Assembly: GCF_009745975.1 (NCBI RefSeq)
Contig: NZ_WHOL01000085.1
Coordinates: forward strand, 9,110 to 44,480
Direction of reading: 5' to 3'
DNA from: Actinokineospora pegani
GTDB taxonomy: Bacteria; Actinomycetota; Actinomycetes; Mycobacteriales; Pseudonocardiaceae
DNA length: 35,371 bases
A program made the translations under genes and the position numbers. Positions 4,162 to 33,920 of this stretch are shown here, in pieces. The first letter of the stretch is position 1; the number at the start of each line of letters is the position of its first letter. A model generated the notes under the pieces. It saw only the letters and a program-made list of their open reading frames with translations, searched no databases and was not told where the DNA came from.

Positions 4162-5160
4162 ATGGGCTCACAACACGCATTCCCCAAGTCCGGTTTCGAC
4201 CGCGGCTCCATGCCGCTGGACGCCGCGAGGTCGTCATTCCAGTGGCTGGTCACCGGGCCCGAGCCGCTGTCGGTCGACGGGCGGACGTTCCCCGGCCTCC
4301 CGGACCGGTCGGTGCCGCTGGACGAGGTGCGCGACCGCCTGCTTCGCCGTCAGACCTCCCAGGCCACGCGCGACCGGGTGTGGGCGCACCTGGTGTTGCG
4401 CAGCCGCACCGACGGTGGCGCGTGGACGGTCGGCGCGGTCGGTGTCGCGCTGCCCGCGCTGCTGTCCATCGCGTCCACGTTGACTGCCAGGTTCGCCAAC
4501 GACCCGAGCGACATCCACGCCGCGGTGCTCACCGGTTTCGTCGCCGCGCTCGGCGAGGCCGACCTGCGTCGGCCGCGCATCATGCTGCGCCTGCGATGGG
4601 CCGCGTACCGAGCCGGGCACGCCGCGGTGCGCGAGGCGCTCGACGCCCCCGTGCCCACCGGACACGGCCTGCGCGCCTCGACCGCGCCGCCCCCGACTGG
4701 GCACCCGGACTTCGTCCTCGCCCGCGCGATCGCCGAGGGCGCCATCACCGCGACCGAGGCCGAACTCATCGGCGTTACCCGCCTCGAGGGCGCGTCCCTG
4801 GCGGCCGCCGCGGCCGACCGGAACCTGTCGTACGAGGCCGCGAAGAAGGCGCGTCAGCGCGCCGAGCACCGGCTCGTCGCCTACCTCCTCGACACCGACG
4901 ACAGCGAAGCCGATGGGCACGACCTGTCCGCCCAGGTGGCCGACACGGTCACCGTCACCAACGCCGCGCACCTCCCATTTCTGTCACGCAGCGTCACTCC
5001 CCTGGTGGCGCGGAAGGGCAGCCGGCGTGTGTCCCCCACACCCCGGCTCGACGGAGTTCAGGGTCGCGGGCGGCGTTCTGCTCCCGCGTCCACCACCTCG
5101 TCGTCCCGGTCGCCGCGGCGGCCGACGGACTCGACCTCGGGAGAGTCGCGATGCGCTTGA
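4162..5160 (+). CDS. Sigma-like helix-turn-helix protein heading the transfer operon
   Basis: A protein of 332 residues. The ATG at 4162 is preceded by AGGAGTGATCCC, a strong ribosome site, which decides the start over the upstream in-frame ATG. The middle of the protein has the all-helical look of sigma-like proteins. The segment from ATEAELIGVTRLEG to LSYEAAKKARQRAE resembles a region 4-type helix-turn-helix, with an acidic helix, a Ser/Ala-rich turn and a basic recognition helix. No convincing region 2 is seen, so it may be a degenerate sigma factor or DNA-binding regulator rather than a full sigma factor. The last roughly 50 residues are Ser/Arg/Pro-rich. The 3' end overlaps the next gene by 10 bp, so it is co-transcribed with the type IV secretion genes and may regulate them. 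Confidence 0.65.
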   Translation: MGSQHAFPKSGFDRGSMPLDAARSSFQWLVTGPEPLSVDGRTFPGLPDRSVPLDEVRDRLLRRQTSQATRDRVWAHLVLRSRTDGGAWTVGAVGVALPALLSIASTLTARFANDPSDIHAAVLTGFVAALGEADLRRPRIMLRLRWAAYRAGHAAVREALDAPVPTGHGLRASTAPPPTGHPDFVLARAIAEGAITATEAELIGVTRLEGASLAAAAADRNLSYEAAKKARQRAEHRLVAYLLDTDDSEADGHDLSAQVADTVTVTNAAHLPFLSRSVTPLVARKGSRRVSPTPRLDGVQGRGRRSAPASTTSSSRSPRRPTDSTSGESRCA

Positions 5161-5510
5161 CCCACTCTGTCCACCACCGCGCCTTCGCCCGGTGCCTGAC
5201 TTTCGCGGGCGTGCTCGCGTTGACACTGCTGTCGTCCGCGGCGATCGCGCACGCTGACACCGTGGTGCTCGCGATCGCGGGCAGCGTCGACGAAGTCCTC
5301 ACCAACATCCGCAACTGGTTGATGGGCATCCTCGCCGCGTTGGCGACCGTGTTCCTGACCATCGGCGGCGTCCGCCGAGTGTTCGGCGGTGGTGACCCGG
5401 GCGAGCAGGAGAAGTCGAAGGAGGCGTTCAAGGCCTCCGGGATCGGCTACGCCCTCGCCGCGCTCGCGCCGCTCGTCGTCACCGTCCTCAAGGGCATCGT
5501 GGGGGCCTGA
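5151..5510 (+). CDS. Small VirB2/TrbC-like pilin-type membrane protein
   Basis: A protein of 119 residues with a long N-terminal signal sequence ending near SAAIAHADT. It is followed by a short loop and two hydrophobic segments, LMGILAALATVFLTIGGVRR and YALAALAPLVVTVLKGIV, separated by a charged GGGDPGEQEKSKE loop. A signal peptide plus two membrane helices in about 110 residues is the layout of VirB2/TrbC-type conjugative pilins and their Gram-positive equivalents. The gene directly precedes the VirB6-like gene. The assignment rests on architecture and position rather than a diagnostic motif. It overlaps the upstream gene by 10 bp and is separated from the next by 3 bp. Confidence 0.62.
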   Translation: MRLTHSVHHRAFARCLTFAGVLALTLLSSAAIAHADTVVLAIAGSVDEVLTNIRNWLMGILAALATVFLTIGGVRRVFGGGDPGEQEKSKEAFKASGIGYALAALAPLVVTVLKGIVGA

Positions 5511-5513
5511 CCC

Positions 5514-7292
5514 ATGCGCACCCTCCTGGCCGTCATCCTGGGTCTCGCCATCCTGTCCGGTGGCGCGATCACCGCGGTGGCGCTCGCACCGTCCGCCGTG
5601 GCGCAACCACCAGCGCCCGCGCCTCCGCTGCCCACTGTCGAACCGGCGCCGTGCGCGCCGGGGTCGCCGCTGCCGATGTGTGGCCTGCCCACACCGATAA
5701 CAACACCGCCGCCACCGCCGTGCTCCGGTGTCGGCTGCATCCCGCAGCCCGGCACGACCGCACCGGCACCGTCCACACCCGGCACGGGCACCCCCGGCGA
5801 CGGGGAGGGGCCCGAGGCCGACGACTGCGGGATCACCGACATCGGCGCCTGTGTCACCGGGGCCATCGACACGTTCTTCCGAGGCATCGTCAGCGAAGCG
5901 CTCAACCCGCTGCTGGACCTGCTGTCCACCACGTTGCTAACCACACCGACACCGACCTCGCTGCCGCGGGTCGCCGAACTGTGGGACAACTCGTGGCAGA
6001 TCCTGCTCGTCTCCTACGGGCTGCTCGTCGTCATCGCAGGTGTCATCGGCATGGGCTATCAGACACTGCAGACCCGCCACTCCATCAAGGAGCTCGCGCC
6101 CCGCCTGGTCGTCGGCTTCCTGGCGGGAGCGTTGTCGCTATGGGCGGCGACGATGGGCATCGAGATCGCCAACGCGCTCGTCACCGCGATCATGGACGGC
6201 GGCGTCGACGCCGACAGCGCGGGCCGGGCGTTGAGCGAGCTCACGCTGGGCAGCCTCAACGGCGGCATCTGGATCGCGATCGTCGGCCTCGTCCTCGCGG
6301 GAATGCTGGTCGCCCTGCTCGTGACCTACGTGGTGCGGGTCGCGGCGACCATCATCCTCGTCGCCGGGGCGCCGCTGGCGCTGATGTTCCACGCACTGCC
6401 GCAGACCGAGGGCATCGCCTACTGGTGGTGGAAGGCCTACGCCGGTTGCCTGGGCATCCAACTGGGCCAGTCGCTGACCCTGATCACCGCCCTGAAGGTG
6501 TTCCTGGCACCCGGTGGGTTCGGTCTCTTCGGCCCGACCATGCCCGGTCTGGTCAACCTGCTGGTCGCGATCGCGCTGATCTTCATCCTGCTGAAGATCC
6601 CGGGCTGGGTGCTGTCCTCCGTGCGCGGCGGCGGGGGTGGGCGGGGGATGGTCGGGTCCGTCGTGCGCGGGTTCATCGCCTACAAGACCCTCGGCATGCT
6701 CGGTGGCCGCGGCGGTGGCAAGGGCGCGGTCACGCCACCGGTGCTTGGCGCGAGCCCAGGTGCCGGGAACGCCACCAAGCCAGGCCCCCTTGCCGGAACA
6801 CGTGCGTTGCCGGATGGCCAGTACATGCTGCCGCTGCCCGGCGTGCGGCGAACCCGCGCCTCGGCCAAGGCCGCGCCCAAGGCGGCGGCGCCGAAGGCCG
6901 GTCCGCAGGCGCGACAGCTGGCGCTCCCGTTGGGCGAGGACTGGCCGGAGAACAAGCCGGTCCTCGGCCGTGACGGGCAGTACCGGCTCCCGCTTGACGG
7001 AGTGCGGCGCGTGCCCCGCCCGGCCAACTCGACGCCACCGACACCCCGTCCGTCCGTGCGGCGCGCGACGCAACTCGAACTGCCGCTCGACCCGTACAAG
7101 GGCAACCGGGCAACCAGGGACGGGCAATACCCCCTGCCACTGGACGGACTCCGACGAACCCCGGCACCCGCTCCCCCGACGCCACCGGCAACACCGCCGC
7201 CGCGCCCGAGCAACCAACTGCGACTGCCGCTGGACCTGCCCAAGCGCACACCACCACCCGCACGACCGACACCGCGAGGAGTGAAGTCGTGA
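5514..7292 (+). CDS. VirB6/TrbL-like conjugation channel protein with a repeated Q-[LY]-x-LPL tail
   Basis: A protein of 592 residues. A signal-like N-terminus (about 1-30) leads into a Pro-rich segment with spaced cysteine pairs (for example CSGVGC and CGITDIGAC), likely extracytoplasmic and possibly disulfide-bonded. About six membrane segments follow between residues 155 and 360. The largest hydrophobic stretch reads GLVLAGMLVALLVTYVVRV, the arrangement of VirB6/TrbL channel proteins. The last roughly 225 residues, probably cytoplasmic, start Gly-rich and then carry three units. Each unit has a DGQYxLPLxGxRR motif and a QLxLPL motif separated by Pro/Ala linkers. The hexapeptides start at residues 436, 468, 489, 520, 538 and 568. 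QLxLPL resembles sliding-clamp-binding peptides. Overlaps the PrgI gene by GTGA. Confidence 0.8.
   Translation: MRTLLAVILGLAILSGGAITAVALAPSAVAQPPAPAPPLPTVEPAPCAPGSPLPMCGLPTPITTPPPPPCSGVGCIPQPGTTAPAPSTPGTGTPGDGEGPEADDCGITDIGACVTGAIDTFFRGIVSEALNPLLDLLSTTLLTTPTPTSLPRVAELWDNSWQILLVSYGLLVVIAGVIGMGYQTLQTRHSIKELAPRLVVGFLAGALSLWAATMGIEIANALVTAIMDGGVDADSAGRALSELTLGSLNGGIWIAIVGLVLAGMLVALLVTYVVRVAATIILVAGAPLALMFHALPQTEGIAYWWWKAYAGCLGIQLGQSLTLITALKVFLAPGGFGLFGPTMPGLVNLLVAIALIFILLKIPGWVLSSVRGGGGGRGMVGSVVRGFIAYKTLGMLGGRGGGKGAVTPPVLGASPGAGNATKPGPLAGTRALPDGQYMLPLPGVRRTRASAKAAPKAAAPKAGPQARQLALPLGEDWPENKPVLGRDGQYRLPLDGVRRVPRPANSTPPTPRPSVRRATQLELPLDPYKGNRATRDGQYPLPLDGLRRTPAPAPPTPPATPPPRPSNQLRLPLDLPKRTPPPARPTPRGVKS
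6819..7232 (+). repeat. Coding array of six Q-[L/Y]-x-L-P-L hexapeptides
   Basis: The hexapeptides are QYMLPL, QLALPL, QYRLPL, QLELPL, QYPLPL and QLRLPL, starting at nucleotides 6819, 6915, 6978, 7071, 7125 and 7215. They alternate Y and L forms. Y-to-L spacing is 30-32 residues and L-to-Y spacing is 18-21 residues. Codons differ between copies (CAG or CAA, CTG, CTC or TTG, CCG or CCA), so the conservation is at protein level rather than from a recent DNA duplication. Confidence 0.85.
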
Positions 7293-8338
7293 CCGCACCC
7301 GTCCGCATCCCAGCCGACGTCGACATGCACGACCGCGTGCTCGGTCCGCTGACCGCGCGCCAGGTGGCGATCCTGGCCACCGCCGCCGCGCTGCTATACC
7401 TGCTCTGGCTCGGCACCCGTTCCTTCCTGCCGTTGCCGGTCTACCTCGTCGTGGCCGGGCCGTCCGGTGTCCTGTCGGCCGTGCTCGCCCTGGGCACCCG
7501 AGACGGCGTCCCCATGGACCGGCTCGCGCTGGCCGCCTTCCGCCAACGCCTCGCGCCGCGCCACCACGTCGCCGCACCCGAGGGTGTGCGCCCCGCACCC
7601 GCCTGGCTCACCACCGACGTCGACCAGCCCGACCAGCAGGCGGCGTCCGCGCTGCGACTGCCCGCCGAGGCGGTGACCGACACCGGGGTCGTGGACCTGG
7701 GCGAGGACGGTCTGGCGGTCATCGCGGCGGCGTCCACGGTGAACTTCGCGCTGCGCACACCGGCCGAGCAGGAGGCGCTGGTCGCGTCGTTCGGCCGCTA
7801 CCTGCACTCGCTGACCGCGCCGGTGCAGGTGCTGGTGCGCACCGAGCAACTGGACCTCTCGACGCAGGTCGCGGAGCTGCGTAACCGGGCAGGCGGTCTG
7901 GCGCACCCCGCGCTGGAAGCCGCCGCGACCGAGCACGCCGACTTCCTCGTGCGGCTCGGCGAACAATCCGACCTGCTGCGCCGCCAGATCCTGCTCGTCC
8001 TGCGCGAGCCCACAGCGGTCGCCCCGCCCGACGGGCTCGGCGGAGCTGGTCCGCTCGCCCTGCTCAGGGGCAAGCGGGGGCGGCAAGCCGATCCAGGTGC
8101 CAGACGGGCAGCCGAAGCGCGGCTCGTGCGTCGCCTCGGTGAGGCGGTCGACCTGCTATCCCCGGCGGGCGTCGTCGTCACACCGCTCGACGCGGGCCAG
8201 GCCACGGCGGTGCTGTCGTCCGCGTGCGACCCCGACAGCCTCCTGCCGCCGTCGCCGGGGTTGGCCGGTGCGGACGAGGTCATCACCAGCGCCCTCGACC
8301 CCGGCTGGGGCGATCAGGACGAGAGGGACCTGTCATGA
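7289..8338 (+). CDS. PrgI-family conjugation membrane protein
   Basis: A protein of 349 residues starting at a GTG that overlaps the stop of the VirB6-like gene. The N-terminus (VRIPADVDMHDRVLGPLTAR) followed by two closely spaced membrane helices and a short positively charged stretch is typical of PrgI-family proteins. Those sit between VirB6-like and VirB4-like genes in Gram-positive type IV secretion operons, roughly corresponding to VirB3. The cytoplasmic remainder is alpha/beta-rich and longer than the minimal family. It may resemble the N-terminal domain found in VirB4 proteins or may contact VirB4. Its stop overlaps the VirB4 start by ATGA. Confidence 0.78.
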   Translation: MTAPVRIPADVDMHDRVLGPLTARQVAILATAAALLYLLWLGTRSFLPLPVYLVVAGPSGVLSAVLALGTRDGVPMDRLALAAFRQRLAPRHHVAAPEGVRPAPAWLTTDVDQPDQQAASALRLPAEAVTDTGVVDLGEDGLAVIAAASTVNFALRTPAEQEALVASFGRYLHSLTAPVQVLVRTEQLDLSTQVAELRNRAGGLAHPALEAAATEHADFLVRLGEQSDLLRRQILLVLREPTAVAPPDGLGGAGPLALLRGKRGRQADPGARRAAEARLVRRLGEAVDLLSPAGVVVTPLDAGQATAVLSSACDPDSLLPPSPGLAGADEVITSALDPGWGDQDERDLS

Positions 8339-10149
8339 GCTCACGTCTGCGCCGCGACCACGACTCGACGGCGTTCACGCCCGACGCGCTGTCGGTGGGC
8401 ATCCGGCACCTTGAGGTGGGTGGCGAGTGGGTCGCCTCGTTCGCGGTGGTGGGGTTCCCCCGCGAGGTGCACCCCGGCTGGCTGGCGCCGCTGCTGACCT
8501 ACCCCGGCCGCCTCGACGTCTCCGTCCACGTCGAGCCGATCGACCCCGCCACCTCCGCGACCCGGCTCAAGAAGCAACTGGCCAAGCTGGAAGCCGGGCG
8601 CCGGCACACCGCCGCGCACGGCCGCCTGTTCGACCCCCAGGTCGAGGCCGCGACCGAGGACGCCTACGACCTGTCCTCCCGGGTGGCCCGCGGCGAGGGC
8701 AAGCTGTTCCGCACCGGCCTGTACCTGACCATCCACGCCGCGTCGGAGGAGGCGCTCGCCGACGAGGTCGCCGCCGTGCGGGCCCTGTGCGCGAGCCTGC
8801 TGCTCGACGCCAAGCCCACCACCTACCGCAGCCTGCAGGGCTGGGTGACCACGCTGCCGATGGGCCTGGACCTCATCGGCATGCGCCGCACCTTCGACAC
8901 CAGCGCGCTCGCGGCGGCGTTCCCTTTCACCAGCCCCGACCTGCCCGCCCCCGACCCGACCAGTGTGGCGGCGCCGACCGGCGTCCTCTACGGCTACAAC
9001 ATCGGCTCGCAGGGCCTGGTGCACTGGGACCGGTTCGGCGAGGGGATGCACAACCACAACTCGGTCATCCTAGGCCGCTCCGGCGCGGGCAAGTCCTACC
9101 TGGCCAAGCTCGAACTGCTGCGCAACCTGTACCGGGGCATCGAGATCGCCGTCATCGACCCCGAGGACGAGTACGCCCGCCTGTCCGCCGCGGTCGGCGG
9201 CACCTATATCCACCTCGGTGCGAACGGCGTCCGGCTCAACCCGTTCGACCTGCCCATCCAGACCCGCGCCGACGGTCGGCGCAGCGCCCCGAAGGACGCC
9301 CTGATCCGCCGGTCGCTGTTCCTGCACACGGTCATCGCCGTCCTCATCGGCACAGAGTTGCATGCGGCCGAGCGGGCAGCCCTGGACCAGGCGATCGCCG
9401 CGACCTATCGCAGCGTGGGCATCACCGACGACGCCCGCACCTGGACCCGACCATCACCCACCCTCCGCACGCTGCGAGACCAGCTCGCGACCGCGGGCAA
9501 AGCGGGTGACCGGGCCGCGGGCGATCTCGCGGCGCGGCTGCACCCCTTCGTCGAGGGCGCGTTCTCTTCTCTGTTCGACGGGCCCAGCAGCATCCGCCCC
9601 GAGGGGCACCTGGTCGTGTTCAGCCTCCGCGACCTGCCCGACGAGCTCAAAGGGATCGGCACCCTACTGACCCTGGACTCGGTCTGGCGGCGAGTGTCCA
9701 ACCCAGCGATCCGCCGCCCCCGCCTGGTCGTGGTCGACGAGGCCTGGCTGCTGATGAAAGAGAAGGCCGGGGCCGAGTTCCTGTTCCGCATGGCCAAGGC
9801 ATCCCGCAAACACTGGGCCGGACTAACCGTCGCCACCCAGGACACCGCCGACGTCCTCGGCAGCAACCTGGGCAAGGCGGTCGTGGCCAACGCCGCGACC
9901 CAGGTGCTGCTGCGCCAGGCGTCTCAGGCCATCGACGAGATCACCCGGACCTTCGACCTGTCCGCCGGTGAGCGGGCGTTCCTGCTCTCGGCCGACCGGG
10001 GCCAAGGGCTGCTGTCCGCGGGCACCCAGCGAGTCGCGTTCCAAAGCATCGCCTCACCAACCGAGCACCAACTGGTCACCAGCGATCCGGAGTTCCTGGC
10101 GTCACTGCCGGATGTGGACGCGAGCCCCGAATGGGAAGACCTGCCATGA
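8335..10149 (+). CDS. VirB4-like conjugation ATPase
   Basis: A protein of 604 residues. The ATG at 8335 overlaps the preceding stop (ATGA); the frame is open further upstream but overlaps the PrgI gene. Walker A is GRSGAGKS at about residues 247-254, with IDPEDEYARL just after it. Walker B is LVVVDEAWLLM, with Asp-Glu near 468-469. A later TQDTADVLGS segment is typical of VirB4/TraC/ConE ATPases. The N-terminal roughly 230 residues form the alpha/beta domain characteristic of VirB4. It should energise assembly of the transfer channel at the inner face of the membrane. It ends about 900 bp before the next plus-strand gene; that gap holds an antisense gene. Confidence 0.93.
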   Translation: MSSRLRRDHDSTAFTPDALSVGIRHLEVGGEWVASFAVVGFPREVHPGWLAPLLTYPGRLDVSVHVEPIDPATSATRLKKQLAKLEAGRRHTAAHGRLFDPQVEAATEDAYDLSSRVARGEGKLFRTGLYLTIHAASEEALADEVAAVRALCASLLLDAKPTTYRSLQGWVTTLPMGLDLIGMRRTFDTSALAAAFPFTSPDLPAPDPTSVAAPTGVLYGYNIGSQGLVHWDRFGEGMHNHNSVILGRSGAGKSYLAKLELLRNLYRGIEIAVIDPEDEYARLSAAVGGTYIHLGANGVRLNPFDLPIQTRADGRRSAPKDALIRRSLFLHTVIAVLIGTELHAAERAALDQAIAATYRSVGITDDARTWTRPSPTLRTLRDQLATAGKAGDRAAGDLAARLHPFVEGAFSSLFDGPSSIRPEGHLVVFSLRDLPDELKGIGTLLTLDSVWRRVSNPAIRRPRLVVVDEAWLLMKEKAGAEFLFRMAKASRKHWAGLTVATQDTADVLGSNLGKAVVANAATQVLLRQASQAIDEITRTFDLSAGERAFLLSADRGQGLLSAGTQRVAFQSIASPTEHQLVTSDPEFLASLPDVDASPEWEDLP

Positions 10150-11006: not shown

Positions 11007-11045
11007 GCAGGAGCCATTGTCTGCCCGGTGACGACCAGGCACCAC

Positions 11046-13559
11046 ATGTTTTCACCGGGTGGTGAGGAGTTCGGCGGCGATCGGGTCGAACTCGACGCGA
11101 TCGCCGCCGGGTGGATCGAGGACTACCTGCGCGATCCGGCGGGCGTCCTGGCCTCATCGCTCGGGCGCCTGCGGGACCTCGCGCTGGACTGGGCGCCAGT
11201 GGCGGTTCCGGCGGCGGTGGTCCTCGTCGCCGGGGTGCTGCTGGTCGGGCGATGGTGGGGGCGCCGTCGCCACGAGCTGCTGGTCGCCGATGCCCGACAG
11301 ATCACCGTGCTCGCCCCGCCCACGGTCGACCCAGCGGGTGGGGCCGCGCTGTGGTCCAACCTCGTCGGCCTGCTGCGGCCGGGATGGCGCCGCAGGTTCA
11401 CCGGCCAACCGCACATCGTGTGCGAGTACGTGTTCTCCGAGGCGGGCGTGGCGATCCGGCTCTGGGTGCCCGGTGTCATCCCGCCCGGCTTGGTCGAACG
11501 CGCCGTCGAGGCCGCCTGGCCGGGCTCGCACACCCGCGTCGGCCCCGCCGAGCCGCCGCTACCGCCACCTCGAGAGGGACGGCAGCGGGTGGTCGTCGGC
11601 GGTGAGCTGCGATTGGCCCGCCCGGAGGCGCTGCCGATCCGCAGCGCCTTCGACGCCGACCCCATCCGAGCGCTGATCGGGGCCCCGGTCGGGCTCGGCC
11701 GCGACGAGCACGCCTGCGTGCAGGTGCTGGCGCGCCCGGTGACCGGTCGCCGGGTACAGCGCGCTCGTCGAGCCGCCCGCCGGGTGCACGCCGGGTCAAC
11801 GCGACTGGTCGGCGCAGTACTCGACCTACTGACACCCGGTCCGTCCACCAAGGCAAGGAAGCGGCCAGGGACCGGGACGTTGCACAGCGACCCGCAGACC
11901 TCGCTGGAGTTCTCGGCGCAGAACCGGGCCATCGTCGGCAAGCAGCGCGGCAGCCAGTTCGAGACGGTCATCCGCTACGCCGTGGCGACCCTGCTGCCCA
12001 CCGAGGCCGACAAGGACGAGGTCCGCCAAGCCCGGGACATCGCCCGCGGCCGGGCCCACGCCCTGGCGGCGTCGTTCGCCTCCTACACCGAGCACAACCA
12101 CTACACCCGGCGCCGCGTCCGCCACCCCGGCGCCGTGGTCGACTCCCGACGACTCGGCCGTGGGGACCTGCTCTCGGTGCCCGAGCTGGCGGCGATCGCC
12201 CACCTGCCCACCGACGAGGCCATCCCCGGCATCCAACGCGCCGGGGCCCGCGCCATCGCCCCACCACCCGGCATCGCCACCCCCGGCCCGGAGGCCAAGC
12301 CCCTCGGCGTCACCGACACCGGCCACCAACGCCCCATCGCGCTGCGGGTCCCCGACGCCCGCCACCACCTGCACGTCATCGGCGCGACCGGGTCCGGCAA
12401 GTCCACCCTGCTCGGCAACATGATCCTCGCCGACGCCGAAGCAGGCCGCGGCATCGTGCTGATCGACCCCAAGGGCGACCTCGTCACCGACGTCCTCTCC
12501 CGGCTGCCGCGCGACGCCGCGGACCGGGTGGTCCTCTTCGACGCCGACAGCAAATCACGACCGCCCTGTCTCAACCCCCTAGACGGAGGCCAGACCGACC
12601 TGACCGTCGACAACCTCGTCAGCGTCTTCCGCCGCGTCTACTCAGCCTTCTGGGGACCACGCACCGACGACGTCATGCGCGCCGCCTGCCTCACCCTGCG
12701 CACCCAGGAAGGCGTCGCCACCCTCGCCGACCTACCCAAACTCCTGGTCGACGGCCCCTTCCGCAACCGGGTCACCGCCGGGGTCACCGACCCGGTCCTG
12801 CGCGGCTTCTGGGACTGGTACGAGGACCTCACCGACTCGTCACGATCCCAGGTCATCAGCCCGCTGATGAACAAACTCCGCGCCTTCCTCCTACGCCCCT
12901 TCGTCCGCGACGCCATCGCGGGCGGAGCCTCCACCGTCGACATGCCCCACGTCCTCGACGGCGGCATCTGCCTCGTCCGCATCCCCAAGGGCTCCCTCGG
13001 CGAGGAGACCACCCGCCTGGTCGGCTCCCTGGTCGTCGCCCGCACCTGGCAAGCAACCACCGGCCGCGCCCGAACCCCCCAACGCCAACGCCGCGACGCC
13101 TCCCTCGTCATCGACGAGTGCCACAACTTCCTCAACCTGCCCTACCCCATCGAGGACATGCTCGCCGAAGCCCGCGGCTTCCGCGTCGCCATGACCCTCG
13201 CCCACCAACACCTCGGCCAACTCCCCCGCGAACTCCGCGAAGGCATGTCCACCAACGCCCGCTCCAAGATCTTCTTCAACGCCTCCCCCGAAGACTCCCG
13301 CGAACTGTCCCGCCACACCACCCCACGCCTGTCCGACCACGACCTCGCCCACCTCGGCGCCTACCACGCCGCCGCCCGCTTGGTCCTCAACGGCGAGGAA
13401 GCCCAACCCTTCACCATGCTCACCCAACCCCTGCCACCCGCGGTCCCAGGTCGAGCCCGCGAGATCCGGGCCGTCGCACGCCGATCCGCCACCCGCCGCG
13501 AGGTGCCGCTTGAGCCATCACCGGGCCCGCAGCGCTCCAGTGACCCCCGACGCAGCTGA
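11046..13559 (+). CDS. Type IV coupling protein (TraD/VirD4-like ATPase)
   Basis: A protein of about 837 residues if the ATG at 11046 is used; a GTG at 11028 is also possible. The frame is open far upstream, but that part is the complement of the HEAT-repeat gene. A membrane helix (VAVPAAVVLVAGVLLVG) lies near residue 55. The ATPase domain has Walker A GATGSGKST near 446, LIDPKGDLV near 473 and a Walker B-like VIDECHNFL near 690. An AHQHLGQLP and FFNASPEDS segment near the end follows the pattern of TraD/TraG-type DNA transfer proteins. It should bring the DNA-protein substrate to the channel and help pump DNA. The long region between helix and ATPase domain is actinobacterial in style. The downstream gene is a replication-relaxation protein. 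Confidence 0.9.
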   Translation: MFSPGGEEFGGDRVELDAIAAGWIEDYLRDPAGVLASSLGRLRDLALDWAPVAVPAAVVLVAGVLLVGRWWGRRRHELLVADARQITVLAPPTVDPAGGAALWSNLVGLLRPGWRRRFTGQPHIVCEYVFSEAGVAIRLWVPGVIPPGLVERAVEAAWPGSHTRVGPAEPPLPPPREGRQRVVVGGELRLARPEALPIRSAFDADPIRALIGAPVGLGRDEHACVQVLARPVTGRRVQRARRAARRVHAGSTRLVGAVLDLLTPGPSTKARKRPGTGTLHSDPQTSLEFSAQNRAIVGKQRGSQFETVIRYAVATLLPTEADKDEVRQARDIARGRAHALAASFASYTEHNHYTRRRVRHPGAVVDSRRLGRGDLLSVPELAAIAHLPTDEAIPGIQRAGARAIAPPPGIATPGPEAKPLGVTDTGHQRPIALRVPDARHHLHVIGATGSGKSTLLGNMILADAEAGRGIVLIDPKGDLVTDVLSRLPRDAADRVVLFDADSKSRPPCLNPLDGGQTDLTVDNLVSVFRRVYSAFWGPRTDDVMRAACLTLRTQEGVATLADLPKLLVDGPFRNRVTAGVTDPVLRGFWDWYEDLTDSSRSQVISPLMNKLRAFLLRPFVRDAIAGGASTVDMPHVLDGGICLVRIPKGSLGEETTRLVGSLVVARTWQATTGRARTPQRQRRDASLVIDECHNFLNLPYPIEDMLAEARGFRVAMTLAHQHLGQLPRELREGMSTNARSKIFFNASPEDSRELSRHTTPRLSDHDLAHLGAYHAAARLVLNGEEAQPFTMLTQPLPPAVPGRAREIRAVARRSATRREVPLEPSPGPQRSSDPRRS

Positions 13560-13592: not shown

Positions 13593-14603
13593 ATGATCAC
13601 CAACCCCACACGGCAACGAACCCTGCGAGGACACAAGGCTGCCCGGCCTGGCCTGCGGGCCGCGAACACCGCCGAGCACCAGGCCGTGCTCGCGTGGCGA
13701 TTGACGCCGCGGGACAAGTGGATCGCCCGGATGCTGTGGGAGCACCGGGTGCTGACCTCCCACCAGATCACCGCCCTCGCCTTCCCGTCGGCCCGGTCCG
13801 CGCGGATGCGGCTGCGCGAGCTCTTCAGCTGGGGCGTCGTCGACCGCTTCCAGCCGTTCGTCACCGTGGGCACCTCGCCCATGCACTACGTCCTCGCCCC
13901 CGCGGGCGCCGCAGTCTTGGCCGCCGAGGACGGTGTGGACGTCAAGGCGATGGGTTACCGGCACGACCGGGCCTTCGGGATCGCCCACAGCCTGCGCCTG
14001 GCCCACACCGTCGGGGTCAACGAGTGGTTCACCGCCCTCGTCGCCCGCAAGGCCGACGTCTTGGAAGCGTGGTGGTCGGAGGCTCGCTGCGCCCGCCACT
14101 TCGGTGACCTGGTCAAGCCCGACGGCTACGGCCGCTGGCAGGGCGGTGCCCGGCGGATCGAGTGGTTCCTCGAGTACGACTTCGGCACCGAGGTCCTGGG
14201 CAAGGTCGCCGCGAAGCTGACCGGGTACGCCGCCCTCGCCCAGGCCACCGGAATCACGACCCCGCTGCTGGTCTGGTTGCCCACCTCGCGGCGCGAGGCC
14301 ACCGCCCGCCAGCTGCTGACCCGAGCCTGGCGCGAGCTGGATGACCAGCGCTCGGTACCCGTCGCCACGGCAGCCGCCGAGATGCTCAACCCCGAGACGC
14401 CCCACCCCAGCCCGGCTGACGACGTCTGGCTTCCGTTGGACACTGCCAGCGGGCCTCGCCGAGGCCTATCGACCCTGCTGGACGCCTGGCCGCACATCCC
14501 GCCCCCGGCCGCGCCCACCAGCGAGGCCGACACGGCACAGCCGACCTCACCACCACCCTCGCCGATGCCACCCACGGCGCCGCGCGGGCCAGCAGGAGCG
14601 TGA
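13593..14603 (+). CDS. Replication-relaxation family protein
   Basis: A protein of 336 residues starting at an ATG preceded by GGGAGGCACCGAC. Residues about 35-110 (LTPRDKWIARMLWEHRVLTS to VVDRFQPF) form a winged-helix-like region that matches the opening of Replic_Relax proteins, which are common on actinobacterial plasmids and conjugative elements. The central part has conserved-looking aromatic and acidic residues (GVNEWFTALV, EWFLEYDFGTE). The C-terminus is Pro/Ser-rich and probably disordered. The family name suggests a part in plasmid replication or DNA relaxation, but its biochemical role is not settled. No HUH-type relaxase motif is visible here. With no other relaxase in the window, this is the best candidate for DNA processing next to the coupling protein. 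Confidence 0.78.
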   Translation: MITNPTRQRTLRGHKAARPGLRAANTAEHQAVLAWRLTPRDKWIARMLWEHRVLTSHQITALAFPSARSARMRLRELFSWGVVDRFQPFVTVGTSPMHYVLAPAGAAVLAAEDGVDVKAMGYRHDRAFGIAHSLRLAHTVGVNEWFTALVARKADVLEAWWSEARCARHFGDLVKPDGYGRWQGGARRIEWFLEYDFGTEVLGKVAAKLTGYAALAQATGITTPLLVWLPTSRREATARQLLTRAWRELDDQRSVPVATAAAEMLNPETPHPSPADDVWLPLDTASGPRRGLSTLLDAWPHIPPPAAPTSEADTAQPTSPPPSPMPPTAPRGPAGA

Positions 14604-14607
14604 GGCC

Positions 14608-15585
14608 GTGATCGTCAAGGTCGCCGTGGGGGCCGCCGCGGTCGCGCTGGTCATCCCCGTCGTGATCGGCCAAGGCGTCAGCGGCGTCGTGGACGCGCTG
14701 CTCGGCAGCTCCCCGACCAGCACCGTCGCCTGCGCGAGTTTCGTCGCCGACATCCCGAGCGAGTACTGCCACCTCTACGTCACCGCCGCCGCGGACTGCC
14801 CCGGCCTCGACTGGACCGTCCTCGCCGCCATCGGCAAGGTCGAGACCAACCACGGCCGCCTCCAAGCCCCCGGCGTGACCGACGGCGAGAACTCCGCCGG
14901 AGCTGGCGGGCCGATGCAATTCCTCGCCCCCACCTTCACCTCGGTCATCACCACCCACCAGCTACCCCCAGGCGGCGCATCACCGCCCTCCCGCTACAAC
15001 CCCCACAACGCCATCCACGCCGCAGCCTTCCTCCTCTGCGACGAAGGCGTCCGCCGAGGCGACCTCCGAGCAGCGATCTTCGCCTACAACCACGCCGACT
15101 GGTACGTCACCAAAATTCTCAACCAAGCCGCCGAGTACACCCAAGCCGCCACAACCACCCCCGGCACCGGCGACTGCAACAACCTCGAGGCCCCCAACCC
15201 CGCCGCGCTCGTCGCCCTCAACTACGCCTGCGGCCAACGAGGTCTCCCCTACGTCTGGGGTGGCAACGGTCCCGCCCAGGGCGACGCGGGCTTCGACTGC
15301 TCCGGCCTCACCACAGCCGCCTACGCGGCCGCCGGACTCGCTCTCCCCCGCACCGCCCACACCCAATTCCACGCAGGCCCACACGTACCCCCAGGCCACC
15401 CCCTCCAACCCGGCGACCTCGTCTTCTACGGCACCCCAGCTCGAATTCACCATGTCGGCCTTTACATCGGACACAACCTCATGATCAACGCCCCCACCTT
15501 CGGCCAACCAGTTCAGACCGCCCCCTACCGCTACCCCGGTGACGACTACGCAGGTGCCACGCGGCCGGTCGCAGACGAGCGTTGA
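14608..15585 (+). CDS. Lytic transglycosylase-NlpC/P60 wall hydrolase for conjugation
   Basis: A protein of 325 residues starting at GTG 14608, four bases after the previous stop, with AGGAG about 10 bases upstream. An N-terminal membrane anchor (about 5-32) leads to a soluble lysozyme-like transglycosylase domain with a catalytic-type Glu in IGKVETNHG (about residue 79) and GPMQFLAPTF. After a Thr/Gly linker comes an NlpC/P60 domain. Its catalytic Cys is in FDCSGLT (about 231) and the His in HHVGLYIG (about 281-282). The third position falls in MINAP, where Asn stands in place of the more common His. Two-domain enzymes of this type (CwlT, TcpG, VirB1-like) cut glycan and peptide bonds so the conjugation machine can cross the wall. 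Last gene of the transfer operon. Confidence 0.9.
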   Translation: MIVKVAVGAAAVALVIPVVIGQGVSGVVDALLGSSPTSTVACASFVADIPSEYCHLYVTAAADCPGLDWTVLAAIGKVETNHGRLQAPGVTDGENSAGAGGPMQFLAPTFTSVITTHQLPPGGASPPSRYNPHNAIHAAAFLLCDEGVRRGDLRAAIFAYNHADWYVTKILNQAAEYTQAATTTPGTGDCNNLEAPNPAALVALNYACGQRGLPYVWGGNGPAQGDAGFDCSGLTTAAYAAAGLALPRTAHTQFHAGPHVPPGHPLQPGDLVFYGTPARIHHVGLYIGHNLMINAPTFGQPVQTAPYRYPGDDYAGATRPVADER

Positions 15586-24714: not shown

Positions 24715-25494
24715 TCACAGTCCTGTGAGGACTTGGTTGATGGCCGGGTAGCCGATGAGGGCGAGGAAGCCGAGGAACAGGATGGCCACCGGCAACGACA
24801 TGCGTTCGGTTGCTGCCTGGGCGCGCTGCTCAGCCTCGGTGGTCTGGCGGGTGCGCATGGCGCGGGTCCGGGCTGCGAGGGAGGCGCGGATGCGGGCGCC
24901 CTCGCAGCCTGCGAGGCTGACCGATGCCGCCAGCTCGGCGAGGTCGCCGATGTCCAGGCGGTCGCCCAGGTCGCGCAGGGCTGACCAAGGCGAGGCGCGG
25001 GTGAGCCGGGCGGTGTCCAGCGCTCGGCGAATCTGCTCGGCGGCCCAGCCGTGGCCGTTGGTCGCGGCGCCGGTGAGGGCGCTGTCGATGCCCGCGCCTC
25101 CCGCCACCGCGATCCAGACCAGGTCGAGGTAGGCGGCGAGGGTTTGCCGGAACTCGTTCCGCAGCCTTGCGGCGTTCGCGCGTAGGAGGATGTCCGGGAG
25201 CACAAACCCTGCGACGCCCAGCGCGGCCGCGGCGACCAATGGCGCGCCGATCCCGAGGGGAAGGCCAAGCGCGAACAGGGCGGTGGCGGCCGCTCCTGGA
25301 CCGAACACACCGGCGGCGGCCAGAGCGAGCTTGCGGGCGTGGTGGTCGGAGGGCTGGCGGTTGACCAGGGCGAGGTCATGCGCGAGTCGGCCGTGGCTCT
25401 TGCCGAGTGCGAGCGACTGTGGAGGAAGGGAGTTCGCCGCCATGGCCCAGAGGCCGGCGCCGACTCCTGAGCCAAGTAGGAGTTGCAGGATCAT
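24715..25494 (-). CDS. tadC: TadC-like type II secretion F domain protein
   Basis: A protein of 259 residues. It has an N-terminal membrane helix, a pair of hydrophobic segments near residues 45-80, and the cytoplasmic four-helix core of a T2SSF domain. A C-terminal helix (MSLPVAILFLGFLALIGYPA) completes the layout. This is one of the two inner-membrane platform proteins of Tad pili. Its start overlaps the TadB-like gene by 4 bp, as expected for the TadB-TadC pair. The assignment of C rather than B follows gene order after the ATPase. Confidence 0.85.
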   Translation of the reverse strand: MILQLLLGSGVGAGLWAMAANSLPPQSLALGKSHGRLAHDLALVNRQPSDHHARKLALAAAGVFGPGAAATALFALGLPLGIGAPLVAAAALGVAGFVLPDILLRANAARLRNEFRQTLAAYLDLVWIAVAGGAGIDSALTGAATNGHGWAAEQIRRALDTARLTRASPWSALRDLGDRLDIGDLAELAASVSLAGCEGARIRASLAARTRAMRTRQTTEAEQRAQAATERMSLPVAILFLGFLALIGYPAINQVLTGL

Positions 25495-26303
25495 CGTGCT
25501 TCCCCACTGACTGGTCGGGCTCGGACCGTGTGCGCCAGCCAGGCGAAGCCGGTTGCGAACAGCGCGACGACCGCTGCGAGAACCAACTGCCCCTGGGCGC
25601 CGTTGAAGGCGTCGAGGTAGGGGCGGTTGAGGATCATCAGGGCGATGGTGAATCCCAAGGTCGTCCCGACGATGACCCGCACTGTCGTCCGTGTCCGGGC
25701 CCGCCCCGCGGCCACGCGCATCCGCATCGCGGCGTGGTCGCGAGCTGCCTCGGCGAGGGAGCCCAGCAGTTCGGCCAGACGGCGGGCCTGCTGCTCGGCC
25801 GCGACCGCCAGCGCGGTGGCGACGAGGTCGCCCACAGGGTCATCGAGGCGCTGGCCCAGCTCGCGCAGCGCGGGCGCCAGGCGGCCGCCTCGCTCGATGC
25901 CCGCGGCGACCTCGCCCAACTCGGAGCGGATGGCCTGCGGAGCGAGCGGGGTGGTGGCGAGGACCGCCTGCTCCAACCCGGCCGCCGAGGACAGCGTGTC
26001 GCGCAGCATCTCGGCCCAGGTGGCGATCGCCGCGGTGCGGGTGACGCGCCGGTCGTGCTCGCGGTCGGGCCCCAGGAGGTCGGGGAGGAACCACGCGCCG
26101 AGGGCAGCCGCGACGGCACCCGCCAGCCAGCCGGTGGACCACCAGACACCCGCGGCCACGACAACCGCCGCACCGGCCTTGAGAAACGCGCCTCGGCTGG
26201 CACGAGGTTGTCGAGGCTCCCCGGTGCCGTGCCAGGCTCGGGCGAGCACGACCAAGCCGGTACCGGCTCCTGCGCCCACGAGCGCGGAGACGACGGTGGT
26301 CAT
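25491..26303 (-). CDS. tadB: TadB-like type II secretion F domain protein
   Basis: A protein of 270 residues. The ATG at 26303 overlaps the ATPase stop (ATGA); the upstream open frame only shadows the ATPase gene. Membrane helices occur at the N-terminus, near residues 45-75 and twice at the C-terminus (TTLGFTIALMILN, LVLAAVVALFATGFAWL). Between them lies a T2SSF core (AEMLRDTLSSAAGLEQAVL, ALRELGQRL). It should form the inner-membrane platform with the TadC-like protein and couple ATP hydrolysis to pilus assembly. Confidence 0.86.
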   Translation of the reverse strand: MTTVVSALVGAGAGTGLVVLARAWHGTGEPRQPRASRGAFLKAGAAVVVAAGVWWSTGWLAGAVAAALGAWFLPDLLGPDREHDRRVTRTAAIATWAEMLRDTLSSAAGLEQAVLATTPLAPQAIRSELGEVAAGIERGGRLAPALRELGQRLDDPVGDLVATALAVAAEQQARRLAELLGSLAEAARDHAAMRMRVAAGRARTRTTVRVIVGTTLGFTIALMILNRPYLDAFNGAQGQLVLAAVVALFATGFAWLAHTVRARPVSGEAR

Positions 26304-27625
26304 GAGGTCCACCAGCCCATCGGGTTCTCCAGCATGTCGGGGTCGAACCCGACGTCGGCGAGGTCGTCGAGGGTGGCGCCGTGCAGGCTGCCCGCGACCG
26401 GGCGGGCCCGGTTGTCCGGTCCGGGTCGGTAAACCTCGTTGGTGACGACGTGGGCACCGTCGGCGGCCACGACCTCCCGAATCGAGGAGACGACCCGGCT
26501 GGCCCGGTCCTTGGTTCTGGCGAGGTGGACGACGAAGTGCAGGCCGGTGGAGACGAGCAGGTTGGTGACCTCGACGGGGAGGCGCTCGTCGCCTTGGGCG
26601 GCGTAGGCGGCGAGCCTGGCGAACGCCGCCCCGGAGGACGAGGCGTGCAGGGTCGCCAGCGAGCCGTCGTTGCCCTGGGACATGGCGTTGCACATCGGGA
26701 TGACCTCGGGGCCGCGGATCTCGCCGACGATCACGCGGTCCGGGGACATGCGCAATGCCCAGCGGAGCAGCTCGGCCTGGGAGATGGCGCCCTCGCCCTC
26801 GATGTTGGCGTCTCGCGCCTGCAGGGCGATGACGTCGATGCGGGTCGGGTCGTGCTCGAGGCCGAGTTCGAGGGTGTCCTCGATGGTGATGAGGCGCTCC
26901 GCGGCGTCGATGTCGGCGGCCATGGCGCGCAGCAGCGTGGTCTTGCCCGCGCTGGTGCCGCCGGTGATCAGGACGTTCTTCCTCGCCCGGGTGAGCGCGC
27001 TGAGGAAGGACTCCAGGCCGATGTCGACGCTGCCCCGCCTGCGCAGTTGGTGCAGGGTGGCGGTGACGTAGCCGTGGCGGCGGATGGTGAGCGCGGTCGA
27101 GCCGTCGCTGGTCAGCCCGAGAACGGCGAAGAGCCGCTGGCCGCCGGGCAGTTGGAGGTTGAGCGCGGGGGAGCCTTGGTCGAGGCGCCGCTCGTGGGTG
27201 GCTGAGCGGGCCAGGTCCCGCACGAGTTCGGTCAGTTCGTCGTTCGAGGACGCCACCGGGGCGACGCGGACCCTGCGGCCGTCGGCGTGGTGGACGACGA
27301 CGTCGTCCCACCGGTTGACCGCGATGGTCTCGACGGTCGGGTCGTCCAGCCAACGCTGGAGCCCTCCCGCGCCGATGAACTCCTTCACGATGTCCCCGAC
27401 GATGCGATGCGCTGTGCCGTCTTCGACAGGTGGCCGTCCCGCGGCCAGTTCGGCCTCGGTGTGCGTGCGCAGTGCGCTGTCGGCGATGCTGCGGGCGATA
27501 GTGCCCCGAACCTCGCCGATCGACCCGGTGTCGACGGCACCCACCTCGGCTGCGACGCGCTGCGGCAGTTCGACGGCCACCTCGTGGCGGATGGCCTGCC
27601 TGAGCCGGGTCTGCGCGGCGCTCAT
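26300..27625 (-). CDS. tadA: TadA/CpaF-type pilus assembly ATPase
   Basis: A protein of 441 residues, starting at ATG 27625, which overlaps the lipoprotein gene stop. It has the CpaF/TadA N-terminal domain and then a secretion ATPase core. Walker A is GGTSAGKTT at about 222-230, an ITIEDTLELGLEH Asp box follows, Walker B is VIVGEIRG at about 298-304, and the His box is LATLHASS near 323-330. ATP hydrolysis at the cytoplasmic face would drive polymerisation and possibly retraction of the Flp pilus. Adjacent TadB, TadC, Flp and TadE genes confirm the context. Confidence 0.94.
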   Translation of the reverse strand: MSAAQTRLRQAIRHEVAVELPQRVAAEVGAVDTGSIGEVRGTIARSIADSALRTHTEAELAAGRPPVEDGTAHRIVGDIVKEFIGAGGLQRWLDDPTVETIAVNRWDDVVVHHADGRRVRVAPVASSNDELTELVRDLARSATHERRLDQGSPALNLQLPGGQRLFAVLGLTSDGSTALTIRRHGYVTATLHQLRRRGSVDIGLESFLSALTRARKNVLITGGTSAGKTTLLRAMAADIDAAERLITIEDTLELGLEHDPTRIDVIALQARDANIEGEGAISQAELLRWALRMSPDRVIVGEIRGPEVIPMCNAMSQGNDGSLATLHASSSGAAFARLAAYAAQGDERLPVEVTNLLVSTGLHFVVHLARTKDRASRVVSSIREVVAADGAHVVTNEVYRPGPDNRARPVAGSLHGATLDDLADVGFDPDMLENPMGWWTS

Positions 27626-28284
27626 CGCGAGGCGATCGCGTTCATGAGGCCGTCGGCGACCGCGCAGGGATCGACGGACGGGAAGCGCGCGTTGGCGACG
27701 ATGACGCCGCCGGTGCCGTTGGCGAGGGTGACCAGCCCGAGGCACTGCTTGCCGAACTTGGGGTCCTCGGGACGGGGGTGGAGGAGCCCTGGCTTGCCCG
27801 CCCACTGCTTGGCGACCGAGCCAGGTTCCCTGGCCGGGTCGGCGTCGAGCTTGTCGCTCCAGAGGATGTTGGCCTGGAAGCGGCCGCCCTTCTCGGTGGG
27901 TCGGGCGCCGGGCTGAATCTCGATCTGGCCGCTGTTGCTCCAGGAGCAGCGGACCTTGATGGAGCCGCTTGCCTCTGATTGGACGGGCGGGTGGGGCTTG
28001 CCGTCGGTGGGGCGTACCGGTTCCGGGAAGTCGTCCCAGGTGACAACGGTGCACGGGTCGAACGGCGCGCCCACCTCGGAGGCGCTCTTGGGACCGTTGA
28101 GATCACCGAGGCGGAGCGAGCCCTCGGCGCGTCCGGCACGGCGGTCGACGCTGGCGGCATCGTCCTGCGCCGGGGTGCTGAACCCTGCCCCCGCGGGTCC
28201 GAGGGCGGTCTGGGTCTCGTCGTTGGTGCAGGCGGTCGCCACCGCGATCAGCGCGGCAGTCGGGATCAGGACGCGGATTTTCAT
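27622..28284 (-). CDS. DUF3558-like lipoprotein
   Basis: A protein of 220 residues, ATG 28284 preceded by GAGGAACC. The signal MKIRVLIPTAALIAVATAC ends in a lipobox-like Cys, so it is probably a lipoprotein anchored to the outer face of the membrane. The mature part has the pattern of DUF3558 proteins: FDPCTVVTWDDFPE, then KVRCSWSNS, KQCLGLVTLANG and a final DPCAVADGLMNAI, with cysteines that could pair. The function of this family is unknown; several members lie in pilus or secretion loci of Actinobacteria. It is coupled to the TadA gene by a 4-bp overlap. Confidence 0.72.
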   Translation of the reverse strand: MKIRVLIPTAALIAVATACTNDETQTALGPAGAGFSTPAQDDAASVDRRAGRAEGSLRLGDLNGPKSASEVGAPFDPCTVVTWDDFPEPVRPTDGKPHPPVQSEASGSIKVRCSWSNSGQIEIQPGARPTEKGGRFQANILWSDKLDADPAREPGSVAKQWAGKPGLLHPRPEDPKFGKQCLGLVTLANGTGGVIVANARFPSVDPCAVADGLMNAIASR

Positions 28285-32661: not shown

Positions 32662-32729
32662 AGGGGCTGACGCGAGGGCCAAGCCCTGGCACAGTTGGTG
32701 AGGCAGTGTCGCGAACAAGGGGGTGTCGC

Positions 32730-33920
32730 ATGTCCAGCGAACCGATCACCGACGGGCCGGTCTTCGACGCCGCGTCCGACGACTTCGGCCACCACGTCCA
32801 CCACGTCCCACGCGGGGTGTTGACCCCCACCACGGTCGACGAGCTCGCCGACGCCGTCGCCTACGCCTGCAACAGGGGCTTGCCGCTGTTGGCCCGCGGC
32901 CAGGGCCACTCCACGGCCGGGCAGTCGCAGGTGGCGGACGGCATCGTCATCGACATGCGGAACCGGACCAGGGTCCTGGAGGTCACCGACCAGGAGGTGA
33001 CCGTCGAGGCAGGCGCCACCTGGTACCAGGTCCTCGACGCCACGATCGCCCACGGCCTGACCCCACCCGTGCTCACCGACTACCTCGGCCTCTCCGTCGG
33101 CGGCACCCTCTCCGTCGGCGGCGTCGGCGGCGCCAGCCACCGCCACGGCGCCCAAACCGACAACGTGCTCGCCCTCAACGCCGTCACCGACCAGGGCCTG
33201 ACCACTTGCTCGCCCACCACCGACACCACCCTGTTCGACCAGATCCGCGCCGGACGAGGCCGCCACGGCATCATCGCCACCGCCCGCATCCCCCTCGTCC
33301 CCGCACCCACCACCGCCCGCGTCCACACCCTCCACTACACCTCGCTCGACACCTTCCTCGACGACCAACGCCACGCCATGACCCTCCCCGACGCCGACTA
33401 CCTCGAAGGTCAAGCAAAGTGGACCGGCACCGGCTGGCGCTACGAACTCGAACTCGTCCAGTACGTCAACAACGACCACCCGCCCGCCGACCTGAACGAC
33501 CTGCAGTACAACGACCACGAATTCGCCGAACGCGACTACTACGACTTCGCCACCCGCCTCCGCGCAGGCGAAGAACTCCTGCGCCAACTCGGCGACTGGC
33601 TCCAACCCCACCCCTGGGTCAACTACCTCGTCCCCGCCCCCAAGGCAGAACAAGTCATCGACCACGTCCTCGCCACCACCACCCTCGACGACATCGGCGT
33701 GCGCGGCACCGTCCTGACCTACCCCTACCCCCGCGCCCGCATGCGCACCCCCGCCATGCCCCTGCCCGCCGGAGACGACGACTTCCACATCATCGCCCTC
33801 CTGCGCACCGCCCTCCCCGACGCGCCGGTCAGCCACCACCAGATGCTCGAAGCCAACAACCGCCTCGACCACCACGTCACCACCAACGGCGGCACCATCT
33901 ACCTAGGCCGCCTGACCTAA
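32730..33920 (+). CDS. Cytokinin-dehydrogenase-like FAD-linked oxidoreductase
   Basis: A protein of 396 residues; ATG 32730 follows AAGGGGG. The FAD-binding domain begins with TPTTVDELADAVAYA and LPLLARGQGHSTAGQS. The GHS motif (about residues 59-61) is where cytokinin dehydrogenases attach FAD to His. YLGLSVGGTLSVGG and ASHRHGAQTDNVLAL continue the PP-binding fold. The C-terminal HPWVNYLVP matches the HPWLNLFVP-like motif of cytokinin dehydrogenases. It is shorter than plant enzymes (about 500 residues). It probably oxidises an amine or a related small molecule; the substrate cannot be told. It has no obvious tie to pilus assembly. Confidence 0.82.
   Translation: MSSEPITDGPVFDAASDDFGHHVHHVPRGVLTPTTVDELADAVAYACNRGLPLLARGQGHSTAGQSQVADGIVIDMRNRTRVLEVTDQEVTVEAGATWYQVLDATIAHGLTPPVLTDYLGLSVGGTLSVGGVGGASHRHGAQTDNVLALNAVTDQGLTTCSPTTDTTLFDQIRAGRGRHGIIATARIPLVPAPTTARVHTLHYTSLDTFLDDQRHAMTLPDADYLEGQAKWTGTGWRYELELVQYVNNDHPPADLNDLQYNDHEFAERDYYDFATRLRAGEELLRQLGDWLQPHPWVNYLVPAPKAEQVIDHVLATTTLDDIGVRGTVLTYPYPRARMRTPAMPLPAGDDDFHIIALLRTALPDAPVSHHQMLEANNRLDHHVTTNGGTIYLGRLT

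Follow-up and report, generated by a model that had tools for sequence, protein, structure and literature searches.

VirB6/TrbL proteins have four to six hydrophobic helices, according to an excerpt of PMC12857230, and the VirB6 of plasmid R388 (TrwI; PDB 7O3V, 8RTD) places only two helices in the membrane, its bulk being periplasmic (excerpts of PMC12857230 and PMC9259494). The extended VirB6 homologues of the Gram-positive MPF-FA systems, for example Orf15 of Tn916, are large and carry extra unstructured domains, the role of which is not yet known according to the 2025 review; the excerpt of that review (PMC12857230) does not mention a clamp-like motif array. Binding of the host clamp by proteins of mobile elements is known from IS transposases, soluble enzymes with one QLxLF-like motif near the C terminus, sometimes with a potential second one, the motif often lying in unstructured sequence (excerpt of PMC4549789). 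The clamp-binding consensus is given as pentameric QLxLF or hexameric QLxLxL (excerpt of PMC4564189). The Hda hexapeptide QLSLPL binds the clamp (excerpts of PMC3836487 and PMC12309361) and does so tightly, an epsilon variant with QLSLPL having a KD of 0.38 uM (PMC12309361); published motifs also include QL[SP]LPL and, in HdaA, QFKLPL (PMC3836487).

The VirB6-like protein described here, from Actinokineospora pegani, is likewise large and predicted to be partly unstructured. Compared with R388 VirB6, whose aligned part ends at residue 272, it adds an N-terminal region with several Cys residues and a 198-residue tail bearing a motif array, and no such array is mentioned for the MPF-FA proteins in the review excerpt. 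Unlike the IS transposases, it is a membrane channel protein, and most array-bearing loci carry 6–10 motifs. The class A tail motifs resemble the hexapeptide of Hda, which, in contrast, has a single copy in its N-terminal region and controls replication initiation rather than serving in transfer. Among the titles of open-access PMC texts listed in literature searches, outside which most subscription papers lie, none describes a clamp-type peptide tail on VirB6.

The VirB6-like protein and its motif array

The window, which is the whole 35,371-nucleotide stretch analysed (contig NZ_WHOL01000085.1), contains an actinobacterial conjugation-type T4SS with its genes in one run:

5151..5510, plus strand: T4SS pilin (VirB2-like), upstream neighbour (PF18895)
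5514..7292, plus strand: TrbL/VirB6-like membrane protein, 592 aa (precomputed PF19590.5; best fold match R388 VirB6)
5841..6695, plus strand: its VirB6-like helical part, residues 110–394 (AlphaFold2 pLDDT mostly about 70–85, with dips to 57–59)
6696..7289, plus strand: its tail, residues 395–592 (198 residues), predicted disordered, basic and Cys-free (composition, AlphaFold2)
7289..8338, plus strand: PrgI-family (VirB3-like) protein, downstream neighbour (PF12666)
8326..10149, plus strand: VirB4-like ATPase, start approximate (profile match)
11040..13559, plus strand: VirD4/TraG-like coupling ATPase, start approximate (profile match)
13593..14603, plus strand: Replication-relaxation protein (PF13814)
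14566..15585, plus strand: SLT and NlpC/P60 wall hydrolase (VirB1-like), start approximate (profile match)

An earlier note on this DNA had named the protein VirB6-like, and both the predicted fold and the neighbouring genes bear this out. Homologues comprised the best 120 of 798 matches and, from another search, the best 120 of 481 (79 of these 120 new); alignment A1 retained 33 of 120 rows and alignment A2 105 rows. The AlphaFold model built from 33 rows gave weak fold matches and the 105-row model better ones. The best match is R388 VirB6, residues 131–374 of the model aligning to VirB6 residues 2–272. Five long helices are predicted between residues 151 and 372 in the 105-row model, and the hydropathy peaks agree with the 4–6 helices of VirB6 proteins. 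A sequence search of solved structures with the 105-row A2 alignment returned no match, and hmmscan returned no Pfam and no NCBIfam family. PF19590.5 is a precomputed assignment on the window protein and its listed relatives; PF19590 is presumably TrbL_3.

The tail carries six peptides of two alternating classes, separated by linkers:

6819..6836, plus strand: B1 motif QYMLPL, residue 436 (sequence; B slot class conserved)
6915..6932, plus strand: A2 motif QLALPL, residue 468 (sequence; Q in 84/84 of the main clade, pentapeptide in 69/71 sister tails)
6933..6974, plus strand: conserved A-B linker GEDWPENKPVLGRD (homologue consensus, near-invariant columns)
6978..6995, plus strand: B2 motif QYRLPL, residue 489 (sequence; columns 489–494 near-invariant)
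7071..7088, plus strand: A3 motif QLELPL, residue 520 (sequence; A-mid slot Q 160/169)
7089..7121, plus strand: conserved A-B linker DPYKGNRATRD (homologue consensus)
7125..7142, plus strand: B3 motif QYPLPL, residue 538 (sequence; B slot Q 198/198)
7215..7232, plus strand: A-last motif QLRLPL, residue 568 (sequence; Q 82/83)

The six alternating Q[LY]xLPL peptides at 6819..7232 had been reported in the earlier note, and their coordinates and alternation are exact. When stop-to-stop frames of at least 60 aa in the window were scanned with Q[LYFMPI]x[LMIVF]P[LFWMI], matches were confined to the open reading frame at 5514–7292. The 198-residue tail has six strict motifs, compared with a mean of 0.0024 and a maximum of one in 20,000 shuffles; for loose motifs the tail again has six, and the shuffles a mean of 0.063 and a maximum of two. 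The codons of the copies are unlike one another within this reading frame and also across species.

Pilin, PrgI and VirB4 matches lie on the same strand as TrbL in most of the 80 loci compared, strand being the property scored. A VirB4 gene occurs in 9 of 12 same-genus relatives, in one or two copies each. Eleven same-genus TrbL loci inspected comprise eight with Q-type tails, one G-type (L100), one F-type (L101) and L102, a distant locus with an internal stop to which no tail type was given. Across the class, 118 genomes were sampled, and 39 of them have a VirB4 match at E 0.001, in many cases a weak one. The distribution is patchy and mobile-element-like.

A search with the tail only yielded 43 proteins of 179–321 aa. 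Separate tail-only genes were considered and provisionally set aside, as most of the 14 proteins inspected start within or beyond the final VirB6 helix and may be fragments, products of split genes or cases of an alternative start. Proteins P0223–P0232, about 300 aa long and several of them named Saccharopolyspora, contain the last VirB6 helix and the array only, as from a split gene or misplaced start. In P0097, P0110 and P0119 the motifs are lost part-way and followed by unrelated Arg/Ala-rich sequence, in a frameshift-like manner.

Conservation and variation of the array

Tails were taken from 199 proteins, nine of which were without the tail anchor; removal of 29 redundant tails from the remaining 190 left 90 main-clade and 71 sister-clade tails, all from the listed homologues. 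The plan of the tail in relatives is B-(A-B)n-A with conserved linkers, where class A is QLxLP[LF] and class B is GQYxLPL followed by Arg. Within a unit, the A-B linkers are of the WPENKP or DPYxGNRP type. The array is broader than first described, with 6–10 copies in 46 of the 56 Q-labelled loci and 2–5 in the other ten.

For the main-clade Q counts, slots were located through their flanking sequence alone. Among the 90 non-redundant main-clade tails, Q occupies slot A2 in 84/84 cases, slot A-last in 82/83, the A-mid slots in 160/169 and the B slots, counted at DPY-type linkers only, in 198/198. Position 3 of the motif varies where Q is constant. Thus the conserved Q and LPL positions that the earlier note proposed to look for are present in the main clade, and drift of these positions with only Pro richness retained is not what the main clade displays. 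The note had also proposed selection on the peptide, which agrees with the near-invariant Q, L, P and L at flank-located slots combined with synonymous codon variation: Leu at P4 of A2 is encoded by CTG 25 times, TTG 13 times and CTC once (n = 39). In the codon analysis, where the core control comprised 24 of 41 rows, low pN at the slots is partly built in because the slot patterns demand the motif. Likewise, the variant lists were compiled with patterns that demand Q at P1 and are therefore useful for variants only, not for Q conservation.

The two classes differ in how closely they follow the clamp consensus. The likeness proposed in the earlier note holds for class A, in which QLxLPL and QLSLF forms occur and Q and the hydrophobic positions are conserved. 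It is weaker for class B, most instances of which have Tyr or Phe at P2 together with Pro at position 5, and which belongs to a larger conserved module, DPYxxxR...GQYxLPLxxxR, that goes beyond the needs of a clamp motif. Class A is itself variable: inner copies have decayed to QLKFPA- or QTKLPA-like forms in some clades, and QLSLPL itself is found in the tails of some relatives. QL[SP]LPL is present in 46 of the 71 sister tails and in 10 of the 90 main-clade tails from the listed homologues.

Among the listed homologues, 71 non-redundant tails belong to the sister clade, and 69 of them have at the A2 slot the canonical clamp pentapeptide or a near variant, Q[LMTP][SP][LM][FL] (QLSLF 41, QMSLF 20, QLSMF 3, QLSLL 2, QTSLF 2 and QLPLF 1). 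The two exceptions are P0151, with QQSLF, and P0197, a record named partial, with a single Q. These counts rest on a separate scan of the 71 tails because the broader flank-type sister patterns, with 184, 175 and 124 instances, pick up unrelated sequence as well. At the D slot of the sister clade, Q (68 of 128 cases) alternates with Gly (60 cases), and hence that repeat is independent of Q. Eight Nocardia tails diverge further: a loose pattern anchored on Q has 23 matches there, 12 of them QLAFDF, and A motifs also take the forms QLAFEF and QLTFDF. Six of these tails have QLMLPL as B1, the other two QLILPL or QMMLPL. B1 is QLLLPL in Frankia L068 and Protofrankia L082. QLAFDF, which retains Q, L and two hydrophobic positions, indicates that the motif can do without Pro at P5, and since the slot can lose Pro it is unlike a proline-specific docking motif. 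The exchange of QLxLPL for QLSLF, QMSLF or QLAFDF keeps the slot within known clamp-ligand space.

Tail exchange and the proposed partner of the array

Of 81 loci examined, one gave no TrbL frame; the remaining 80 were labelled as 56 Q, 13 F, 3 G, 4 other and 4 unreadable or truncated, the Q label including the doubtful L007 and L032 (two motifs each, L032 with a short tail) and the hybrids L046, L051 and L067. F-type tails have repeats ending in FxxP, and G-type tails have GMLPLxLRR repeats. The array is not universal, its place being taken entirely by other peptides in some relatives, and the T4SSs with F- and G-type tails (13 and 3 of 80) manage without it. The F-type tails (L037, L065, L071, L077 and others), Streptomyces-type and some others, are short FxxP peptide arrays; some Q-type tails also have, close to their end, a single FxxP copy such as PVFSSPP. 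The TrbL tail of the Embleya plasmid L006 has a different repeat, GRHRRP.

Four strict clamp patterns have no match in PrgI (71), VirB4 (70), VirD4 (67), ReplRelax (66) or NlpC (57) proteins, in the aligned parts or in the whole open frames, and match one of 80 VirB6 bodies. The loose QxxLF pattern is found in frames of PrgI (2/71), VirB4 (5/70), ReplRelax (1/66) and NlpC (1/57) and in none of 67 VirD4 frames; these matches are chance. A loose hexapeptide occurs in 2 of 66 ReplRelax frames. A scan with five patterns has no match in the 13 F-type tails, and a single QxxLF turns up in one of the three G-type tails.

On a VirB4 tree of 68 rows, built by a quick method, the Q label requires seven changes, six of them forced by well-supported branches. 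Shuffled labels require a mean of 14.6 changes, and none of 500 shuffles was as low as seven; thus the label is clustered yet has switched repeatedly. The count stays at seven without L007 and falls to six without L007 and the rows labelled other. The VirB4 of the F-tailed Parafrankia L079 is 93% identical to that of the Q-tailed Frankia L068 and 77% to the nearest F row, its closest F-tailed kin, L078, being left out of this comparison as VirB4 is absent from its short contig. Similarly, the VirB4 of the F-tailed Saccharothrix L037 is 89% identical to that of the Q-tailed L012 and 77% to the nearest F row. PrgI runs the other way, L079 being 85% identical to F-tailed L078 versus 81% to Q-tailed L068. 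Because close VirB4 kin bear different tail types, the partner of the tail is probably not one of the conserved channel proteins. A co-evolving T4SS neighbour is disfavoured as the partner on the same grounds, the tail-type switches on the tree and the identity table.

The host encodes two DnaN-like proteins, the second 34% identical to DnaN (L002 and L003/L087; contigs C74 and C65); the ORF list of the 18-kb surroundings of the second gene includes no obvious T4SS gene. A tblastn search with host DnaN and its paralogue found no DnaN gene in the window or in the TrbL loci (up to 10 kb a side), which fits host DnaN as the partner. An element-encoded clamp was rejected as a candidate for the stretches searched, the only match, L087, being the paralogue's own locus. 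The likely clamp motifs of host proteins, named here by our own assignment, differ from those of the tail: two DnaE proteins have QFDLF, an ImuB-like protein has QLGLW, a DinB-like protein QLALDA and NucS a C-terminal FRLF, none of which is of the QLxLPL form. The available part of a third DnaE, also so named here, has no clamp motif.

We favour, with somewhat better than even confidence, the reading of the tail as a multivalent platform that docks host DnaN on the cytoplasmic side of a VirB6-type conjugation channel protein. Binding of the A motifs to the clamp appears to be the best explanation, and we hold it slightly more probable than not. The peptide pocket of the clamp would receive the A motifs (QLxLP[LF], QLSLF, QLAFDF), and the B motifs (GQYxLPL) might either bind the clamp less strongly or belong, with A, to a larger docking unit. 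Were VirB6 to form pentamers like that of R388, a channel would display 30 motif copies here and up to 50 in relatives. The channel mouth could then hold clamps together with the DNA they encircle, and freshly replicated or replicating element DNA would be kept beside the export machine in the donor, to the possible benefit of transfer. If true, this would be a direct and cheaply testable physical link from the replisome to the transfer channel. The coupling of conjugative DNA export to replication in the donor is, to our knowledge, poorly known, and such coupling is a step beyond clamp binding that we put forward only tentatively; the link to rolling-circle or second-strand synthesis suggested in the earlier note is of the same tentative kind. 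In its fullest, equally speculative form, the channel may be a clamp hub, in which each VirB6 pentamer, with about 30–50 peptides, collects host clamps loaded on DNA. The machine would thereby sense or capture new element DNA and link the synthesis of the replacement strand to export, and the tail would be a module swapped between elements for other docking arrays.

Alternatively, the A-linker-B unit of about 30 residues may dock a different partner in the cytoplasm, either a protein of the host or one encoded far away on the element, its likeness to clamp ligands being convergence; we consider this possible, at a good deal less than an even chance. The conserved WPENKP and DPYxGNRP linkers agree with such a unit, as do the near-invariant G-Q-Y and trailing Arg of class B and the LP or LL cores that the D slot and the G-type tails retain without Q. 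The same-slot exchange of QLxLPL for QLSLF/QMSLF or QLAFDF is not predicted by it. Moreover, no gene of the T4SS operon is restricted to array-bearing loci in the compared stretches (L012 and L022 versus L037; L068 versus L079), in a list blurred by shadow ORFs; an element gene could sit more than 4 kb upstream of L037 or more than 0.5 kb upstream of L079, beyond these stretches.

Membrane side of the tail

Docking to DnaN requires a cytoplasmic tail, and the membrane side, which we infer, is the main way in which the clamp idea could fail. After the signal segment, the N-terminal region is net negative in 103 of 105 rows (mean -8.4) and has on average 6.1 Cys. The loops have mean charges of +1.4 (183–198), -1.1 (223–249), +0.5 (295–310) and -0.3 (332–345) over the 105 rows. 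Beyond the last helix, the adjoining segment (mean +5.0) and the tail (mean +28.3) each carry a net positive charge in all 105 rows; the tail averages 0.09 Cys, with Cys in 9 of 105 rows. These loop-charge signs and the Cys distribution suggest an outside N terminus, five crossings and a cytoplasmic tail.

An invariant Arg in the long helix 251–294 (+1.0 in 272–277) fits the five-crossing reading poorly, and were this helix to form two crossings, the sixth crossing would place the tail outside. The tail could also be outside because the bulk of R388 VirB6, which the predicted fold resembles, is periplasmic, and the element encodes a wall hydrolase. A tail in the cell wall would be a basic Pro-rich spacer or an adhesin whose repeats bind wall or pilus parts. 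The positive post-helix segment and the contrast between a negative, Cys-containing N-terminal region and a positive, nearly Cys-free tail speak against this arrangement, which we regard as improbable. That the tail is low-complexity Pro-rich filler with no sequence-specific function would agree with the varying length and composition of the linkers between repeats and with the replacement of the array in F- and G-type tails, but it is largely refuted by the near-invariant Q/L/P/L at flank-located slots with synonymous codon variation, and we give it hardly any weight.

Further features lie elsewhere in the window and its contig. On the minus strand, 24715–28054 holds Tad-pilus-like genes for a type II/IV secretion ATPase and T2SSF, and on the plus strand 32706–33920 encodes a FAD-binding protein with a cytokinin-dehydrogenase-like domain. 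A tandem repeat of 126 bases (34883–35369; 3.9 copies, 87% matches) lies within an open minus-strand frame and gives repeated peptide units. Upstream of the window on the same contig (C85), L088 contains two CRISPR-like arrays at 1065–1790 and 4713–5582, with 10 and 12 direct-repeat copies at 72–76-base spacing.
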